This document shows positions 21,895-46,313 of a stretch of DNA of 64,000 nt, piece after piece. The translations under genes were made by a program, and so were the position numbers. Each line of letters begins with the position of its first letter. Positions within the stretch are counted from its first letter, which is position 1. This DNA is from Salinisphaera sp. T31B1 (GTDB lineage Bacteria > Pseudomonadota > Gammaproteobacteria > Nevskiales > Salinisphaeraceae): NCBI RefSeq assembly GCF_040361275.1, contig NZ_APNH01000002.1, positions 124,001 to 188,000 of the forward strand. The letters run 5' to 3'. The notes under the pieces were generated by a model. It made no database searches and was not told where the DNA came from. It worked only from the letters and a program-made list of their open reading frames with translations.

Positions 21895-22644
21895 ATGACT
21901 CAGAACAGCACGCCCACCTTTCGACGCATTCTGCTCAAGCTCAGTGGCGAAGCGCTCATGGGCAACGCCGATTACGGTATTTCGGCGGACGTGGTCGAAC
22001 GGCTCGCCGCCGAGATCAAGGAACTCATCGACGCCGGTGTGGAAGTCGCCCTGGTCGTTGGCGGGGGCAACATCTTTCGCGGGGTCGGGCTGGCCGGTCG
22101 CGGGATGGATCGCGTCACAGGCGATCAGATGGGTATGCTCGCCACGGTGATCAACGCCCTCGGCCTGCAGGATGCCATCGAGCATGCCGGCATGACGGCC
22201 CGCGTGATGTCGGCGGTACGGATCAACCAGGTCTGCGAGGACTACATCCGCCGCCGGGCGATTCGTCATCTGGAAAAAGGGCGCGTCGTGATATTCGCTG
22301 CCGGCACTGGCAACCCGTTCTTCACGACCGATTCGGCCGCCAGCCTGCGAGCCATTGAGATCAATGCCGATCTCATGCTCAAGGCCACCAAGGTGGATGG
22401 CATCTATACGGCCGATCCCAAGCGGGATGCCAGCGCCAAACGCTATTCACATCTGAGCTATGACGAGGTCATCGACCAGCGCCTTGCAGTCATGGATACA
22501 ACCGCGATCGTGCTCTGCCGGGACAACGGGATGCCGTTGCGGGTGTTCGACATCAATCGTACCGGCGATCTCAAGCGTATCGTCTTCGGCGAGGACAACG
22601 TCGGCACGCTGGTCGACAACAATCTGACAAGAGACAAGGCATGA
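21895..22644 (+). CDS. pyrH: UMP kinase
   Basis: Hexameric bacterial uridylate kinase, 249 residues, phosphorylating UMP to UDP; member of the amino-acid kinase fold. Motifs: [13 protein letters not shown] at the N-terminus, [11 protein letters not shown] for nucleotide and UMP binding, [17 protein letters not shown], and [13 protein letters not shown]. The start chosen is the ATG at 21895; a TTG two codons before is in frame. No good ribosome-binding site is visible. The stop overlaps the frr start (ATGA), so the two are translationally coupled. The preceding terminator implies its own promoter in the 136 bases before it; none is convincing. Confidence 0.96.
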
Positions 22645-23198
22645 TTGACGATATTCTCAAGGACGCCGAGCAACGCATGGAAAAGACCATCGGCGTCATG
22701 CGTGACAACTTCAGCAAGATTCGCACCGGTCGCGCCAGCACCAGCCTGCTGGATCACGTCACCGTGGAATACTATGGCAGCGAAGTCCCGCTGAACCAGG
22801 CTGCCAACGTCTCGACGGAAGATGCGCGTACGATCAGCATCATGCCGTACGAGAAGACGATGGTGAACAAGATCGAGAAAGCGATCCTCAGCGCCGATCT
22901 GGGCCTCAACCCGTCCACGGCCGGACAGGTGATCCGGGTGGTCCTGCCGCCGCTGACCGAAGAACGACGCCGTGATCTGGTCAAAGTCATTCGTGCCGAA
23001 GCCGAAGACGGTCGTGTGGCGGTGCGCAATATCCGCCGCGATGCCAACTCCACGCTCAAGGAACTGGCCAGCGAAAAGGAGATCAGTACCGATGACCAGC
23101 ACGGCGGCGAGAATCTGATCCAGAACCTGACCGACAAGCATATCGGCCGTATCGATAGCCTGCTCGAAGACAAGGAGCAGGAGATCATGACGGTTTGA
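22641..23198 (+). CDS. frr: Ribosome recycling factor
   Basis: 185-residue RRF that, with EF-G, splits the post-termination ribosome. It has the typical sequence: [67 protein letters not shown] and a C-terminal helix ending [12 protein letters not shown]-like ([13 protein letters not shown]). The length equals that of E. coli RRF. Start overlaps the pyrH stop by four bases. In Pseudomonas and E. coli the next genes are uppS/dxr; here uppS follows at once. Confidence 0.97.
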
Positions 23199-23227
23199 GC
23201 GATCTCGGCCCGGCAGACCCACGACCC

Positions 23228-23956
23228 ATGAGTACCGTTCCCGAGCACGTCGCGATCATCATGGACGGCAACGGCCGTTGGGCCGGTGCTCGCGGGTTGC
23301 CGCGGGCCGCGGGTCATCGCGCCGGCGCACAGTCCACTCGCGCAGTAGTCGAAACAGCACGAGAAGTCGGCGTCAAGGCGCTGACTTTGTTCGCGTTTTC
23401 AAGCGAAAACTGGCAGCGGCCTAAAGCCGAGGTGCGCGTATTGCTGGATCTGTTCCGTCGCACCATCCGACGCGAGGTGGCCTCGCTGTACGACAACGGC
23501 GTGCGTCTGAGTTTCATCGGCGAACGCAGCCATTTCTCGACGGCCCTGCAGGACGATATGGCCGACGCCGAGGCGCGGACACGTCACAATCAAGCTCTGG
23601 ATCTGGTGATTGCGGTGGATTACGGCGGGCGTTGGGATATCGTCCAGGCCGCGCGTTCTCTTGCCCGGGACGTACTGGCAGGCGAGTTCGAGCCCGACGA
23701 TATAGACGCCGAGCGGCTGTCCGCCCGTATGAGTCTGAGCCGCTTCGCGACGCCGGATCTGTTCATTCGTACCGGGGGCGAACGCCGTATCAGCAATTTT
23801 CTGCTCTGGGATCTGGCGTACTCGGAACTGTATTTCACCGATCGGTTATGGCCGGATTTCGACGCCGACAGTTTTGTCGAAGCGGTGAACTGGTTCGCAC
23901 ATCGTGAACGCCGGTTTGGCGGTCTGCCTGCGACCCGTCGCAAGAGCCTGGGCTGA
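23228..23956 (+). CDS. uppS: Undecaprenyl diphosphate synthase
   Basis: cis-prenyltransferase, 242 residues, that extends farnesyl diphosphate with eight isopentenyl diphosphates to the lipid carrier for peptidoglycan and O-antigen. Signature motifs: HVAIIMDGNGRWA at the N-terminus (catalytic Asp and phosphate-binding Arg), FAFSSENWQRP, and FIRTGGERRISNFLLWDLAYSELYF. The ATG at 23228 fits the family; a TTG at 23195 overlapping the frr stop would add 11 residues. It depends on isoprenoid precursors, notable because the MEP genes normally found in this block are absent. Its stop lies directly before the cdsA ATG. Confidence 0.96.
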   Translation: MSTVPEHVAIIMDGNGRWAGARGLPRAAGHRAGAQSTRAVVETAREVGVKALTLFAFSSENWQRPKAEVRVLLDLFRRTIRREVASLYDNGVRLSFIGERSHFSTALQDDMADAEARTRHNQALDLVIAVDYGGRWDIVQAARSLARDVLAGEFEPDDIDAERLSARMSLSRFATPDLFIRTGGERRISNFLLWDLAYSELYFTDRLWPDFDADSFVEAVNWFAHRERRFGGLPATRRKSLG

Positions 23957-24787
23957 ATGCTCGTCACCCGGATCGCGACTGCGCTCGTACTCGTGCCCCT
24001 TGCGGTGCTGGGCATTCTCTTTCTGCCCACCTTCGCCATTGCGTTCGTGTTTGCCGTGCTCATGCTCATGGGCGCCTGGGAGTGGGGCGCATTCGTGGGT
24101 TTGACGCGCACGCCACGGCTGTTGTTCGTCCTGGCGACGGCGGTGGCGATGGCCTGTGTGGCCGGTCTTCGCTCACGGGCCACTCCGGTCGGGATAGAGA
24201 CGGTGGCGATCGGCCTGGCGTGCCTTTGGTGGCTTGCAGCCGTGGGCTGGATCGTCCGGTTTCCGGATGGATGGGCGGAAACGATCGGTCGCCCGGCGAT
24301 CACGCTGGTGATCGGTCTGGTAGCGCTGGTGGCACCGGTGGCTGCGGTGACCTACCTGCACGACAGCGATACCGGGGCGGTATTGCTGGTCGTATTCTTC
24401 TTCATCGTCTGGGCAGCCGATACGGGTGCCTATATGGCCGGTCGAACGATCGGCCGGCACAAGCTCGTACCGCGCGTCAGCCCGGGCAAGACGCGCGAGG
24501 GGGCGATTGGCGGCATCGTGGCCGCGATCGTGTTCGCGGGTATCGGTGGCTGGGTTCTGGGGTATACGGGGACGCGCCTGGCGGGATTCATGGTGCTGGG
24601 CGGCTGGGTGGCGGCGATCTCGATCGTGGGCGATCTCGGAATCAGCATGTTCAAGCGCCACGCCGGGCTCAAGGATAGCGGTACGCTCTTCCCGGGGCAC
24701 GGCGGCGTGCTGGATCGTCTCGATAGCGTGTTAGCGGCCGCACCCTGGTTCGTTGCGGGTTTGCACTGTCTGCCCAGCCAGTTCTGA
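23957..24787 (+). CDS. cdsA: Phosphatidate cytidylyltransferase CdsA
   Basis: Integral membrane enzyme, 276 residues with about eight hydrophobic segments, that makes CDP-diacylglycerol from phosphatidic acid and CTP, the branch point of phospholipid synthesis. The family signature near the C-terminus is intact: SMFKRHAGLKDSGTLFPGHGGVLDRLDS, with the Asp residues that bind metal. An upstream conserved cytosolic part, GRTIGRHKLVPRVSPGKTREG, is also present. Its ATG follows the uppS stop with no spacer. In related genomes dxr comes next; here 189 non-coding bases lead to rseP. Confidence 0.96.
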   Translation: MLVTRIATALVLVPLAVLGILFLPTFAIAFVFAVLMLMGAWEWGAFVGLTRTPRLLFVLATAVAMACVAGLRSRATPVGIETVAIGLACLWWLAAVGWIVRFPDGWAETIGRPAITLVIGLVALVAPVAAVTYLHDSDTGAVLLVVFFFIVWAADTGAYMAGRTIGRHKLVPRVSPGKTREGAIGGIVAAIVFAGIGGWVLGYTGTRLAGFMVLGGWVAAISIVGDLGISMFKRHAGLKDSGTLFPGHGGVLDRLDSVLAAAPWFVAGLHCLPSQF

Positions 24788-24866
24788 CCCATCGCACGGG
24801 TTGTTCGAACACCGGGTGAATCATTCCGGTTTCGGGGCGGTCCAAGCGGTTCGATGCGAACCGTGC

Positions 24867-24913
24867 GGATCCGGGGCACGTTGCAGAGACGTATCTGCAA
24901 GGCGACCGGATCC
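24867..24913. repeat. Nested palindrome in the cdsA-rseP gap
   Basis: Two concentric perfect inverted repeats: outer arms GGATCCGG (24867-24874) and CCGGATCC (24906-24913), inner arms TTGCAGA (24881-24887) and TCTGCAA (24894-24900) around GACGTA. A TATACT -10-like element (24915-24920) follows two bases later. There is no T-run, so it is not a standard terminator; it could be a protein-binding operator or an RNA structure ahead of rseP-bamA. It lies exactly where dxr is found in related genomes. Confidence 0.7.
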
Positions 24914-24976
24914 CTATACTCGATACACGACAGCCCGGCTGCGACCGTGGCCGGCCCACGAATCTGAGGACGCTTG

Positions 24977-26338
24977 ATGTCTGACTGGCTCATGTCAGTA
25001 CCCGCATTCATCCTGGCGATCGGCCTGCTGGTCGCCGTGCATGAGTACGGCCATTTCTGGGTCGCACGCCGCATGGGCGTGAAGGTGTTGCGCTACTCGA
25101 TCGGCTTCGGCAGCCGCCTGTGGGGGCGCACCAGCCCGCGTACCGGTATCGAATACTGGTTGTCCGCCATTCCGCTGGGCGGCTATGTAAAGATGCTCGA
25201 TGAGCGCGAGGGCCCCGTGGCCGAGGCCGACAAGCCCTATGCCTTCAATCGCCAGCATCCGGCCCGTCGGATCGCCATCGTGGCCGCCGGCCCGGGCGTG
25301 AATTTCCTGTTCGCCATTCTGGCTTACTGGCTGGTGTTCATGATCGGTGTGGCCGGCATCAAGCCGATGATCGCCGCCGCACCCGACGGTTCGCTGGCGC
25401 GCGACGCCGGTCTGCGCGCCGGTGACGAAATCACGGCCGTGGCCGGCAAGACGACCGGCGACTGGCAGGATCTGCGGTTGACGCTGCTCGAACGCGGCCT
25501 GGACGGGGAGCCGGTCGAACTGACCGTACGCGACGGCGACGGCCGGACGCGTCAGGTGCGGCTAGACCTCACCGGTGTGCCGGCCGATCCGGATGCCTTG
25601 TTCGACCGTCTCGGTCTGGCGCCCTATCAGCCGCCGGCGACGCCCACGATTGCGGCCGTGATCGGCGATTCGGCGGCTGAACGCGCCGGTTTGAAAGCCG
25701 AAGACCAGGTCCTGTCCGCCGATGGTCAGACGCTGGACACGCCGCAAGCGCTGGTCGACTACGTCAAGGCGCGGCCGGACGAGACCATCCGGCTGACCGT
25801 CGAACGCGAGGGCCGTCGTCTGGAGCTGCCCGTGACACTCGCCCGGGCCGAAAACGCATCGGGCGAGCCGGTCGGTCGGCTGGGCGCACAGATCGGCGTC
25901 GATGCCCAAGCCTGGTCTCAGATGCGTACGACCCGTCAGCTCGGGCCGCTGGCCGCGATCCCGGCGGCGATCGGCAAGACCTGGGAGGTGTCGTCGCTTA
26001 CCGTGCGGCTCATGGCACGGATGCTCACCGGCGACGTGTCGTGGCGCAATGTCAGCGGTCCGATCCAGATTGCGAACTATGCCGGCCAGACAGCAAGTAT
26101 TGGCCTCGAGGCCTTCGTCGGGTTTCTCGCGTTGGTCAGCGTCAGCCTCGCGGTGCTCAACCTTTTGCCTATTCCGGTGTTAGACGGGGGGCATCTTCTG
26201 TATTATTCGATCGAATGGATCAGGGGTCGGCCTCTTTCCGAGGCCGTTCAGGCGGCAGGGCAGCAGGCGGGCATGGTGGCCCTGCTGATGTTGATGACGC
26301 TGGCTTTCTACAACGATATCCTGCGCTTGCTCGGGTAA
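24977..26338 (+). CDS. rseP: Site-2 (S2P) zinc metalloprotease RseP
   Basis: Inner-membrane intramembrane protease, 453 residues, that cleaves anti-sigma factor RseA in the sigma-E envelope stress cascade and clears signal peptides. The zinc motif HEYGH is at residues 22-26 within the first membrane segment. Two tandem PDZ domains follow (around 120-210 and 215-295: APDGSLARDAGLRAGDEITA and GDSAAERAGLKAEDQVLSA). The third metal-ligand motif PVLDGGHLLYY lies near residues 400-410, followed by a final membrane segment. The ATG at 24977 has a GAGGA site 7-10 bases upstream. bamA follows after 228 bases. Confidence 0.96.
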   Translation: MSDWLMSVPAFILAIGLLVAVHEYGHFWVARRMGVKVLRYSIGFGSRLWGRTSPRTGIEYWLSAIPLGGYVKMLDEREGPVAEADKPYAFNRQHPARRIAIVAAGPGVNFLFAILAYWLVFMIGVAGIKPMIAAAPDGSLARDAGLRAGDEITAVAGKTTGDWQDLRLTLLERGLDGEPVELTVRDGDGRTRQVRLDLTGVPADPDALFDRLGLAPYQPPATPTIAAVIGDSAAERAGLKAEDQVLSADGQTLDTPQALVDYVKARPDETIRLTVEREGRRLELPVTLARAENASGEPVGRLGAQIGVDAQAWSQMRTTRQLGPLAAIPAAIGKTWEVSSLTVRLMARMLTGDVSWRNVSGPIQIANYAGQTASIGLEAFVGFLALVSVSLAVLNLLPIPVLDGGHLLYYSIEWIRGRPLSEAVQAAGQQAGMVALLMLMTLAFYNDILRLLG

Positions 26339-39493: not shown

Positions 39494-41982
<2,489 letters not shown>

Positions 41983-42014: not shown

Positions 42015-43316
<1,302 letters not shown>

Positions 43317-43416
43317 CATGGGCTTGCCGGTGGATCTGTCGCGCGCCGTCGGCCGCTTCACCGGCGGTTTGTCCGTGCCTACTGGACAGTCAGCGTGGTC
43401 GCGCTACAATCCGGGC

Positions 43417-43728
43417 ATGTACCGCGCGGTCATCATCGTTCTGGTCGTCGCTCTCGCCGGGCTGCAGTATCGGCTGTGGATTGCCGACGGCGGCTGGTCA
43501 GAGATTCATCGTCTGACCCATATGAAACACGATCTCGCCGCGGCGAACGATCGGCACCGGCTGCGTAACGATGCGCTTCAGGCCGAAGTCGACGATCTCA
43601 AGGGCGGCGAGAGCGCAACCGAGGGGCGCGCTCGATCCGACATGGGCATGATCAAGCGCGACGAAGAGTTCTTTCTGACCGTCGCGCCCCCCGCCACGGC
43701 GTCTGCCCACCAGCAAGCTGCACGCTGA
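43417..43728 (+). CDS. ftsB: Cell division protein FtsB
   Basis: Bitopic inner-membrane septum protein, 103 residues, partner of FtsL and FtsQ. It has a short cytoplasmic start, one membrane segment at residues 3-20 (AVIIVLVVALAGLQYRLWI), and a periplasmic coiled coil (MKHDLAAANDRHRLRNDALQAEVDDL), followed by ARSDMGMIKRDEEFFLTV, a typical FtsB ending, and a short Ala/Gln-rich tail. The ATG at 43417 is chosen because the frame back to 43318 lacks family sequence. Its stop is directly followed by the truD ATG; ispD and ispF, expected in between in related genomes, are absent. Confidence 0.93.
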   Translation: MYRAVIIVLVVALAGLQYRLWIADGGWSEIHRLTHMKHDLAAANDRHRLRNDALQAEVDDLKGGESATEGRARSDMGMIKRDEEFFLTVAPPATASAHQQAAR

Positions 43729-44808
43729 ATGGCGCTGATCGAGGGCGACGTGGTCGACGTCGCCGCGCTGGCGCATGCCGCCGGTCATGTGCCAGCCACC
43801 ACGGCCCGTTTACGCGTCGCGCCCGAGGATTTCCGGGTGGACGAGGATTGTCCGATCGCGTTGTCCGGTCAGGGCGAACATCTCTGGTGCCATATCGAAA
43901 AGACCGGCCTGACGACGCAAGACGCCGTTCAGGCGCTCTCGCGTGCCGCGGGCGTGCACCCTCGATATATCGGTTTCGCCGGCCTGAAGGATCGACGGGC
44001 GGTCACGCGCCAGTGGATCTCGCTGGCCTGGCCCGTCAATACACCGGCGCCGACGTTGTCCGGGCTGTGCGGGATCGATGTACTTGCGGTGGCCCGGCAC
44101 GACCGCAAACTAAAGCGCGGCGCGCATCGAGGCAATCGGTTTGAGATTACGCTGCGCGAGGTAGCCGGCGATACCGATGCCCTCGAACACGCACTGGCCC
44201 GTATCGGACGCACAGGCGTGCCGAACTACTTCGGCGGCCAGCGTTTCGGCCGCGACGGGAGAAATATTGGGCTGTCGCGGGCTTTGTTCGCCGGCCGTCG
44301 CCTGTCGCGCAATCGGCGTGGTTTTGCCCTATCGGCTGCCCGTTCGCTGTTGTTCAACGCCGTGCTCGATGCGCGAGTACGCGATGCCAGCTGGGACCAG
44401 CTCATCGAAGGCGAAGCAGTCATGCTCGACGGTACGCACAGCGTGTTTTCGCTGGCTGGCACCGATCAGGCCGCGAATACACTGGACGAGCGACTGTCGC
44501 GCTTCGATATCCATCCGAGCGGTCCTTTGCCGGGCCGTGGCGGCGATGATGTGGTCTGCGCTCATGCGCTAAAGCTGGAGCACAGCGTGCTCGCCGAGCA
44601 CGACGACCTCGTACAAGGGCTTCGGCAATGCGGGGTAGACGCGGCCCGTCGGGCGCTGAGGCTGCCGGTGCGCGAGCTGGCCTGGCGATGGGCCGATGCC
44701 TCGTCGCTGGTGGTTTCGTTCTGGCTTCCACCGGGGGCGTTTGCCACCAGCGTGCTGCGCGAGATCGTACAGACCGAGGAAACCGGCGATACAGCGACCG
44801 CGGAGTAG
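43729..44808 (+). CDS. truD: tRNA pseudouridine(13) synthase TruD
   Basis: Pseudouridine synthase of 359 residues acting on U13 of tRNA. Motifs: LRVAPEDFRVDEDCP near the N-terminus, HLWCHIEKTGLTTQDAVQAL, YIGFAGLKDRRAVTRQWISL with the catalytic Asp, LKRGAHRGNRFEITLRE, and GVPNYFGGQRFGRDGRNI. The TRUD insertion domain sits in the middle (about residues 160-300). It abuts ftsB with no spacer and converges on an Smr-domain gene with a 4-base gap. Confidence 0.95.
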   Translation: MALIEGDVVDVAALAHAAGHVPATTARLRVAPEDFRVDEDCPIALSGQGEHLWCHIEKTGLTTQDAVQALSRAAGVHPRYIGFAGLKDRRAVTRQWISLAWPVNTPAPTLSGLCGIDVLAVARHDRKLKRGAHRGNRFEITLREVAGDTDALEHALARIGRTGVPNYFGGQRFGRDGRNIGLSRALFAGRRLSRNRRGFALSAARSLLFNAVLDARVRDASWDQLIEGEAVMLDGTHSVFSLAGTDQAANTLDERLSRFDIHPSGPLPGRGGDDVVCAHALKLEHSVLAEHDDLVQGLRQCGVDAARRALRLPVRELAWRWADASSLVVSFWLPPGAFATSVLREIVQTEETGDTATAE

Positions 44809-44812
44809 GGCG

Positions 44813-45403
44813 CTATCCCCGCCGCAACAAGACATAGACCGCACCGGTGCCGCCATCGTTTTCACGCGCTGAACAATAGGCAAGCACCTCGTCACGCTGG
44901 CGCAGCCATCCGGCGACCTTGATCTTCAGGACCGGCCCGCGGTGACCGGATCGCAGCCCCTTGCCATGCACGATGCGCACGCATCGGTAACCGCGGTCCA
45001 AGGCCTCGCGCAGGAACACGGCCAGACAATGGCGGGCTACATCGACCACCATGCCGTGCAAATCCAGCTCCGCCTGACAGCGATACTGACCCCGGCGCAG
45101 TTTACGCATGACCGACCACTGCACGCCCTCTCGCCGATGAAACAGATCGTCGCCGGTCTCGATATCGGGCGGTGGCGGCAAGTCGAGAAGTTCTCCGATG
45201 ACCGCTCGCTCGTCGGCTTCACGCATGGCCGGCCGCGCCGATGGAAGGCGCCGCTCCGGCGCGCGCCGGGCAGGCGTGCGCAGATCCTGGACCTGGCCTA
45301 CCGAGTCCCGAAACAGGGCGCGTTCCGAATCACTGACGCCGGCATCGTCCATGTCGGCGGGTTCGGCAGCACGCCGCGACGGCATTTTCGATGGGTCGGT
45401 CAC
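44813..45403 (-). CDS. Smr-domain DNA/RNA endonuclease family protein
   Basis: 196-residue protein with a disordered, Arg- and Pro-rich N-terminal half and a C-terminal Smr domain. The domain starts QYRCQAELDLHGMVVDVARHCLAVFL, with the LDLHG motif, and continues RCVRIVHGKGLRSGHRGPVLKIKVAGWL with the conserved HGKG, ending VLAYCSARENDGGTGAVYVLLR. This is the layout of SmrA/SmrB (YfcN-type) proteins; SmrB cleaves mRNA at collided ribosomes in E. coli. Which of these roles applies is not certain. It is transcribed against its neighbours, between truD and surE, which are adjacent in Pseudomonas. Confidence 0.88.
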   Translation of the reverse strand: MTDPSKMPSRRAAEPADMDDAGVSDSERALFRDSVGQVQDLRTPARRAPERRLPSARPAMREADERAVIGELLDLPPPPDIETGDDLFHRREGVQWSVMRKLRRGQYRCQAELDLHGMVVDVARHCLAVFLREALDRGYRCVRIVHGKGLRSGHRGPVLKIKVAGWLRQRDEVLAYCSARENDGGTGAVYVLLRRG

Positions 45404-45563: not shown

Positions 45564-46313
45564 ATGCGATTATTGCTGAGTAACGATGACGGCTGTCACG
45601 CGCCCGGTCTGACCGCGCTGCGCCAGGCGCTGGCCGAGGTGGCCGATGAACTGGTTACGGTCGCCCCGGACCGCAATCGCAGTGGTGCCAGCAACTCGCT
45701 CACCCTGGAGCGCCCGTTGCGCGTGCGTCAGGTCGAGGACCGGCTTTATTCGGTCGATGGAACGCCCACCGATTGCGTACACCTGGCGACCACCGGTCTG
45801 TTCGACGACGAGGCCGATATGGTCGTCTCCGGCATCAATCAAGGCGCCAATCTGGGCGATGACGTCTTGTATTCCGGCACGGTTGCAGCCGCCACCGAGG
45901 GCCGGTCGCTGGGCCTGCCGGCCGTGGCGATATCGCTGATCGGCGAGAATCCGCAGCATTACGATACGGCTGCGCGGGTGGCCGTATCCGTTGTCCGGCT
46001 GCTCATCGAGCATCCGCTGCCGGCGGATACCATTCTCAATGTGAACGTGCCCGATATGGCCTATGAAGCGCTGGATGGATTCGCCGCCACGCGTCTGGGC
46101 CATCGCCACCGGGCCGAGCGGCTGGTCGAGGACAGCGATCCGCGCGGTCGGCCGATCTACTGGATCGGCCGGGCCGGCGGGGAAGCGGACGCAGGGCCGG
46201 GCACGGATTTTCATGCCGTGGCCCGGGGTCAGGTATCGATTACCCCGATTCAGATCGATCTGACACGCCACAGCGCGATCGACGCGGTCGCGGACTGGGT
46301 ACGCCGGTTTTGA
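45564..46313 (+). CDS. surE: 5'/3'-nucleotidase SurE
   Basis: Metal-dependent phosphatase, 249 residues, hydrolysing nucleoside monophosphates and short polyphosphates; stationary-phase survival protein. Active-site motifs: [14 protein letters not shown] (Asp-Asp), [55 protein letters not shown]. Complete. It heads a surE-pcm-yqaA-like-nlpD operon, with overlapping or adjacent stop and start codons. Confidence 0.97.

Follow-up and report, generated by a model that had tools for sequence, protein, structure and literature searches.

The ftsB-truD junction of Salinisphaera as a probable scar of the replacement of the MEP pathway by a mevalonate cluster in the family Salinisphaeraceae

The ftsB-truD junction in the window (the whole stretch of 64,000 nucleotides that was analysed, lying in contig 2 of a Salinisphaera genome) lacks ispD and ispF, and its sequence context suggests that it is very probably one scar of an exchange of the MEP pathway for the mevalonate pathway of isoprenoid synthesis in the family Salinisphaeraceae. 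The MEP families were not found in this genome, a mevalonate cluster is present in it, two sites empty of MEP genes were mapped, and the same pattern extends over the family. An apparent gap between two genes is thus read as part of a family-wide pathway replacement.

Empty MEP gene sites in Salinisphaeraceae

As read directly from the sequence, ftsB (43420..43728, + strand; Pfam DivIC, 54.8 bits, above the cut-off; a further in-frame ATG lies upstream, at 43318) ends with a TGA at 43726-43728, and truD (43729..44808, + strand; Pfam TruD, 214.2 bits, above the cut-off) begins with an ATG at 43729, leaving no spacer. The empty ispD-ispF site is therefore the abutment of these two codons (43726..43731, + strand), and the statement of an earlier note that both genes are missing here was confirmed, the flanking genes being identified by Pfam as DivIC/FtsB and TruD. 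The junction lies in a conserved row of genes, the left anchor of which is pyrG (39509..41152, + strand; CTP_synth_N, 412.5 bits), found at the same position in relatives, followed by a kdsA-type gene (41149..41982, + strand; DAHP_synth_1, 223.9 bits), which was named from its position between pyrG and eno, and by eno itself (42033..43316, + strand; Enolase_C, 413.1 bits). Downstream of truD are a gene with an Smr domain (44813..45403, - strand; 92.9 bits) and the right anchor surE (45564..46313, + strand; SurE, 207 bits).

We laid out this row for eight MEP-bearing genomes of the order, and in all of them ispD-ispF occupy the site, within the arrangement pyrG-kdsA-eno-ftsB-ispD-ispF-smr-surE-pcm (L134, L135, L137, L138, L139, L140, L142 and L144). 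The order ftsB-ispD-ispF-truD, which had been called a hallmark, holds less well among these bacteria than claimed: ispD-ispF follow ftsB in 8/8, but truD follows ispF only in L139 (family f4) and the remaining seven run ispF-smr-surE. The window and the genome G007 show the row of the relatives minus ispD-ispF and plus truD; G015 has the row of the window with about 1.9 kb extra between truD and smr.

TruD was matched in 14 of the 17 Salinisphaeraceae genomes, and the junction was compared in the 13 of these 14 for which the DNA examined includes ftsB (all but G013). No ispD or ispF match was found on the ftsB-truD piece in any of the 13. Extrapolated to the first residue, the truD alignment begins at an offset of between -4 and 12 bases relative to the ftsB stop in 11 of them, and 133 and 297 bases away in the remaining two. 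This comparison, which the earlier note had proposed as a means of dating the loss, places the disappearance of ispD-ispF, most simply, at a time before the three genera sampled diverged. The pair eno-ftsB is present in G014 and G016, with no truD match. As an aside, TruD was matched in only 66 of all 146 genomes searched.

The second empty site lies in a block 19 kb upstream of the ftsB-truD junction, which consists of frr (22641..23198, + strand; 56% to E. coli Frr), uppS (23195..23956, + strand; Prenyltransf, 268.9 bits), cdsA (23957..24787, + strand; CTP_transf_1, 188.8 bits) and rseP (24974..26338, + strand; Peptidase_M50, 228.3 bits). In the relatives L274, L275 and L276 the order is frr-uppS-cdsA-dxr-rseP, and the interval between cdsA and rseP (24788..24973) is the place of the missing dxr; the window, L273 and L279 share the order frr-uppS-cdsA-rseP. 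No dxr match was found at the cdsA-rseP site of the window, L273, L279 or the Nevskiaceae loci L277 and L278. The proposal that MEP genes were lost in a coordinated way at two loci was thus upheld against the relatives for both of them, and the other MEP families were not found either.

We searched 146 genomes for the MEP families, among them the window's own genome (4.36 Mb, rated 100% complete) and, including it, 17 from Salinisphaeraceae. In these 17 there was no match to IspF (PF02542; 91/146 overall), IspH (92/146), IspG (93/146), Dxr (94/146, 93 of them above the cut-off) or IspE (107/146 at E 0.001, 93 above the cut-off). For Dxs, 11 of the 17 had no match and six had weak ones only (1.5e-5 to 3.7e-4). 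IspD matched in 144/146 genomes at E 0.001, a level at which GlmU also matches; the best E values in Salinisphaeraceae ranged from 3.2e-12 to 6.5e-8 in 16 genomes, with none in G016, whereas the full-length IspDs listed outside the family reached 2.2e-36 or better. In the window's own genome the PF01128 search gave two weak IspD matches (33.7 and 21.9 bits), and Pfam assigned the two proteins as GlmU-like (hexapeptide repeats with an NTP transferase domain) and as a MobA-like NTP transferase. Single misses do happen in such searches, as in G021, which has IspF, IspH and Dxr with no IspG match, and in G026, which has IspF with no Dxs match; the lack of five families in 17/17 genomes is not explicable in this way. 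All seven MEP genes thus appear to be absent from Salinisphaeraceae, where none was found by profile search beyond GlmU-level matches for IspD and weak ones for Dxs.

The genome also encodes a ThiS-ThiG protein (L071 18342-19514, contig 1), which makes thiazole from deoxyxylulose phosphate, ordinarily a product of Dxs. It stands in a family in which the profile search gave no convincing Dxs. A passage of PMC13001223 describes deoxyxylulose phosphate as being shunted to thiamin and pyridoxal.

The mevalonate cluster and its origin

A mevalonate cluster was identified with Pfam and NCBIfam in contig 1 of the same genome (about 1,063,436-1,070,086; L071 3437-10087), in the order mvaS / mvaD-pmk-HMGR::mevalonate kinase fusion-idi, with mvaS divergent, on the strand opposite to the rest. 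It answers the puzzle raised in the earlier note, which did not foresee such a replacement, that uppS is kept without the MEP pathway. The HMGR::MVK fusion (L071 4041-6326; 761 amino acids from the ATG at L071 6326) joins HMGR (419.4 bits) to MVK (240.5 bits) within a single frame, and these, as well as mvaD (diphosphomevalonate decarboxylase, 279.4 bits) and the type 1 isomerase Idi-1 (145.6 bits), score above their NCBIfam cut-offs. The best HMGR model of the fusion is TIGR00532 'degradative', a type named for mevalonate breakdown.

The product of mvaS, described as a long, divergent HMG-CoA synthase, reached 157.7 bits against an NCBIfam cut-off of 360.35, and both its N- and C-terminal Pfam domains were above their cut-offs. 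Its structural model (pLDDT 78.1, pTM 0.83) found MvaS structures as the best PDB matches, 5hwr first (E 1.2e-25), and E92, C133 and H275, which we take to be the places of the catalytic triad, are invariant in the HMG-CoA synthase alignment. The best NCBIfam model of the GHMP kinase proposed as phosphomevalonate kinase was TIGR01220 (130.8 bits, cut-off 165.7), and its nearest solved chain was Lin0012 (3k17). These two proteins are therefore candidates for the HMG-CoA synthase and phosphomevalonate kinase steps on the grounds of Pfam domains, fold and context. HMGR was found in all 17 Salinisphaeraceae genomes, in frames of 756-1024 amino acids, and HMG-CoA synthase at E 0.001 in 16 of them, some below the Pfam cut-off; G015 gave no match to the latter at this threshold, nor in about 60 kb of its contig 43.

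Genes for HpnH, a glycosyltransferase and HpnM adjoin the cluster (L071 351-3396). We note that in many gammaproteobacteria the mevalonate cluster has the same hopanoid genes next to it (for example, L146, L148, L150, L151 and L153), hpnH being present in 29/54 loci from Pseudomonadota, some of which are cut by contig ends, versus 0/12 from Actinomycetota. Stand-alone HMGRs of about 400 amino acids were also seen in several genomes of the order from families f2, f4 and f5 that keep the MEP pathway (for example, L074, L077 and L081). Some g13 genomes carry such an enzyme alongside the fusion.

In the sequence of events that we propose, an ancestor of Salinisphaeraceae would have gained, probably from outside, a compact cluster of divergent mvaS, mvaD, a GHMP-type phosphomevalonate kinase, HMGR::mevalonate kinase and idi, which would convert acetyl-CoA into isopentenyl and dimethylallyl diphosphate. 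With this supply from mevalonate, the scattered MEP genes would have become dispensable and then been deleted. Among them, ispD-ispF would have gone from the ftsB-truD interval and dxr from the cdsA-rseP interval, with their neighbours left standing, and UppS and the hopanoid genes would now be fed by mevalonate-derived precursors. We infer that the cluster functions as a pathway, was acquired by transfer and was in place before the MEP genes were lost.

Other explanations of the empty junction were weighed against this exchange of pathways. The genes might simply have moved, with the MEP pathway intact and ispD and ispF elsewhere in the genome, and the region does rearrange, seven of the eight MEP-bearing genomes having no truD in the ftsB row; we nevertheless consider a relocation extremely improbable, because IspF, IspG, IspH, Dxr and IspE are unmatched in this genome and the sole IspD-like matches are the GlmU-like and MobA-like proteins. 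A discovery of ispD and ispF together elsewhere, which the earlier note had named as the sign of a relocation, was not made in the genome-wide profile search. Isoprenoid auxotrophy, with loss of the pathway and uptake of precursors from outside as some host-bound bacteria practise it, would also leave the MEP genes unfound. It is very unlikely, given that the mevalonate cluster offers candidate genes from HMG-CoA synthase through to Idi, and given the size and rated completeness of the genome. That the junction is a product of chance or an assembly artefact is a negligible possibility; we found no point in favour of an artefact, and ftsB is followed by truD, with no ispD or ispF match, in 13/13 Salinisphaeraceae genomes.

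To place the cluster among its relatives, we scanned the alignment of the fusion against the genomes of 84,980 species, which gave at least 586 relatives. We examined 91 loci, namely the best 80 of these and 11 from the searched genomes; the 80 are those most similar to the query, which biases the sampling of the tree. HMGR and MVK are in one frame in 91/91 loci examined, which come from several phyla, and the fusion loci listed include Cryobacterium, Frigoribacterium, Nevskia, Dyella, Wenzhouxiangella, Marinobacter, Calditrichota and Balneolaceae. The tree was a quick reconstruction (LG+G4, with SH-aLRT support only). We defined the groups compared in the AU tests with the finished tree in view, and one locus of Lysobacterales (L160), lying inside Salinisphaeraceae, was counted with them.

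A branch with an SH-aLRT of 100 separated Salinisphaeraceae and Microbacteriaceae from Nevskiaceae and other gammaproteobacteria. Salinisphaeraceae alone as a clade was not rejected (P = 0.605). The sequences from Nevskiaceae were interspersed with Dyella and others and did not form a single clade (AU; P = 0.00145), so that the cost of forcing Salinisphaeraceae together with the Nevskiaceae sequences alone (404 log units, P = 5e-8) is overstated. The arrangement mvaS(-)/mvaD-pmk-HMGR::MVK is common to Salinisphaeraceae and 11 of the 12 Microbacteriaceae loci; no hpnH was found in the DNA examined from the latter, and idi was there in one of the 12. The simplest reading of the tree and the arrangement would be a transfer of the cluster between Salinisphaeraceae and Microbacteriaceae, in either direction.

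The grouping bears on whether the cluster was instead inherited vertically, from an ancestor of the order that had both pathways, with Salinisphaeraceae and the mevalonate-using Nevskiaceae each losing the MEP pathway afterwards. The HMGR::MVK fusion is of the same type in both lineages and lies next to hpnH, and a genome of another order (G123, Natronospirales; contig 4, L153, L212) does contain all seven MEP families together with a lower mevalonate cluster. Against this, the fusion tree parts the two lineages with Microbacteriaceae on the Salinisphaeraceae side, forcing Salinisphaeraceae into the clade of 24 sequences that contains Nevskiaceae cost 257 log units and was rejected (AU; P = 2.3e-7), and mvaS occupies a different position in each lineage, making vertical inheritance unlikely in our judgement. 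Given where the tree places Salinisphaeraceae, the cluster was likely gained separately in Nevskiaceae, which would amount to two replacements of the MEP pathway within one order. The Natronospirales genome gave no HMG-CoA synthase in a profile search, nor over the whole of contig 4, and possibly models an intermediate state of such an exchange; since it keeps the MEP families beside the lower cluster, possession of the lower cluster by itself need not imply loss of the MEP pathway.

An orphan ispD in Nevskiaceae

The second lineage was considered in 20 Nevskiaceae genomes of 2.7-5.6 Mb (g13, n = 18; g20, n = 2). IspF, IspH, IspG and Dxr were found in none of the 20. Weak IspE matches in eight of them all lay inside the HMGR::MVK frame, and the other 12 had none. 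A fused-size HMGR frame was listed in 18 genomes (in G081 with one internal TAG), the frame being cut by a contig end in G075 and only a short HMGR frame being present in G068. HMG-CoA synthase was matched at E 0.001 in 16/20, and Dxs was clear in 17/20, the exceptions being G041, G051 and G062.

A full IspD (187-220 bits) was found in 14 of the 20 and is missing in six. In all 14 this orphan ispD lies directly after ftsB (L241-L246 and L254-L261; for example, L242 3113-3829), and none of the frames has an internal stop. The ten of the 14 that were scored with the ispD model TIGR00453 all exceeded its cut-off of 181.3 (197-223 bits). The median dN/dS of the orphan gene was 0.254 (91 pairs), versus 0.199 for eno and 0.371 for ftsB from the same genomes, by the simple NG86 method, under which the eno value is above expectation, so that these figures are rough. 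The orphan ispD is under purifying selection.

We compared the orphans with 35 distinct MEP-linked IspDs, including that of E. coli, in which 40 columns are at least 95% conserved; 32 of the 40 retain their residue in at least 80% of the orphans and eight do not. At A14 the residue is S in 14/14. At the other seven positions the reference residue is kept in 9 (V104), 11 (D139), 7 (T140), 5 (R157), 10 (A163), 10 (T165) and 2 (T189) of the 14. T140, R157, T165 and T189, which are presumably acceptor-binding in E. coli IspD, are present in 35, 35, 35 and 34, respectively, of the 35 MEP-linked enzymes. Of D106, R109 and K213, assumed here to be further acceptor contacts, the first two are kept in all 14 orphans and the third in 13, and this retention argues against a complete change of substrate. 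G16, R20, K27, G82, R85 and S88 are kept in 14/14; we regard these as the nucleotide-side residues, with A14 in the same loop.

These features suggest that the orphan IspD may have outlived the MEP pathway by taking on another cytidylyltransfer reaction, a tentative reading to which we assign slightly less than an even chance. It draws on the old place of the gene, the intact frame, purifying selection and a nucleotide site that is kept while positions of the methylerythritol-phosphate pocket vary, and such a reuse with a changed acceptor is favoured over slow decay or retention of the old activity. The loss of the gene in six of the 20 genomes indicates some dispensability.

In the four of the 14 genomes that were scanned downstream (L265, L266, L267 and L272), no fixed partner gene of the orphan ispD emerged: the frames scanned after it encode a TIR-WD40 protein in two, P450 and SDR proteins in one, and a 729-amino-acid frame without an assigned family in one. 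The TIR-domain protein, with many WD40 repeats, lies between the orphan ispD and smr (L265 10046-13045; L272 8823-11795) and looks like a defence gene.

Comparison with known mevalonate-using bacteria

Replacement of the MEP pathway by the mevalonate pathway is a known kind of event, of which the Salinisphaeraceae case is a further example, well resolved by its empty sites. More surprising among our findings is the orphan IspD. The two lineages make the order and the fate of MEP gene loss comparable, as the loss is apparently complete in Salinisphaeraceae and incomplete in Nevskiaceae. The replacement predicts that Salinisphaera should be insensitive to inhibitors of the MEP pathway. An IspD annotation is no proof of an MEP pathway, and the Nevskiaceae gene points to an IspD-like enzyme that may now act on another substrate.

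In the literature searched, no paper dealt with mevalonate in either of the genera Salinisphaera and Nevskia; the match that combined Salinisphaera with mevalonate was, in the part concerned, an appearance of Salinisphaera in a table on NadA. Neither genus is mentioned in the main texts of PMC10663253 and PMC13001223, and Table S1 of the latter may list Salinisphaera. No description of an HMGR-MVK fusion was found in the search, which included these two main texts.

Legionella is the gammaproteobacterial genus usually called mevalonate-using. Passages of PMC13001223 recount its assignment to the mevalonate route in earlier work and report that all Legionella analysed lack phosphomevalonate kinase and most lack HMG-CoA synthase, whereas Salinisphaeraceae have candidates for both steps and an HMGR fused to MVK. 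In the surveys as represented by their main texts, 541 of 4,400 species (PMC10663253) have the mevalonate pathway in place of the MEP pathway, and mevalonate-using bacteria make up 12.03% of 4,249 species (PMC13001223). The latter text suggests transfer of mevalonate operons for some lineages and discusses partial MEP pathways. The genes of the surveyed bacteria are, according to these texts, often clustered, with the MEP pathway absent or incomplete, as in Salinisphaeraceae; here, in contrast, two replacements that are likely separate fall within one order, and both empty sites are mapped.

For the orphan IspD, the closest parallels in PMC13001223, as far as its text covers them, are Listeria, with a mevalonate pathway and a partial MEP pathway ending at MEcDP, and several Rickettsia species, in which IspD is reported. 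As in Listeria, a remnant of the MEP pathway (ispD) stands beside the mevalonate pathway in 14 Nevskiaceae genomes; however, Listeria keeps a functioning run of steps, whereas these genomes keep IspD without detectable Dxr, IspE, IspF, IspG or IspH. The Nevskiaceae enzyme resembles that of Rickettsia in having no isoprenoid pathway of its own around it, but Rickettsia are obligate intracellular bacteria, while the Nevskiaceae have genomes of 2.7-5.6 Mb, a mevalonate cluster and changed residues at conserved IspD positions. Solved relatives of the ribitol-5-phosphate cytidylyltransferase type are 4jis and 6xhp. Enzymes of this type (TarI/Bcs1) share the IspD fold and use another polyol phosphate as the acceptor. 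The ten orphans tested scored at most 86 bits against the ribitol model, the cut-off of which is 166, yet kept their high scores with the ispD model TIGR00453.
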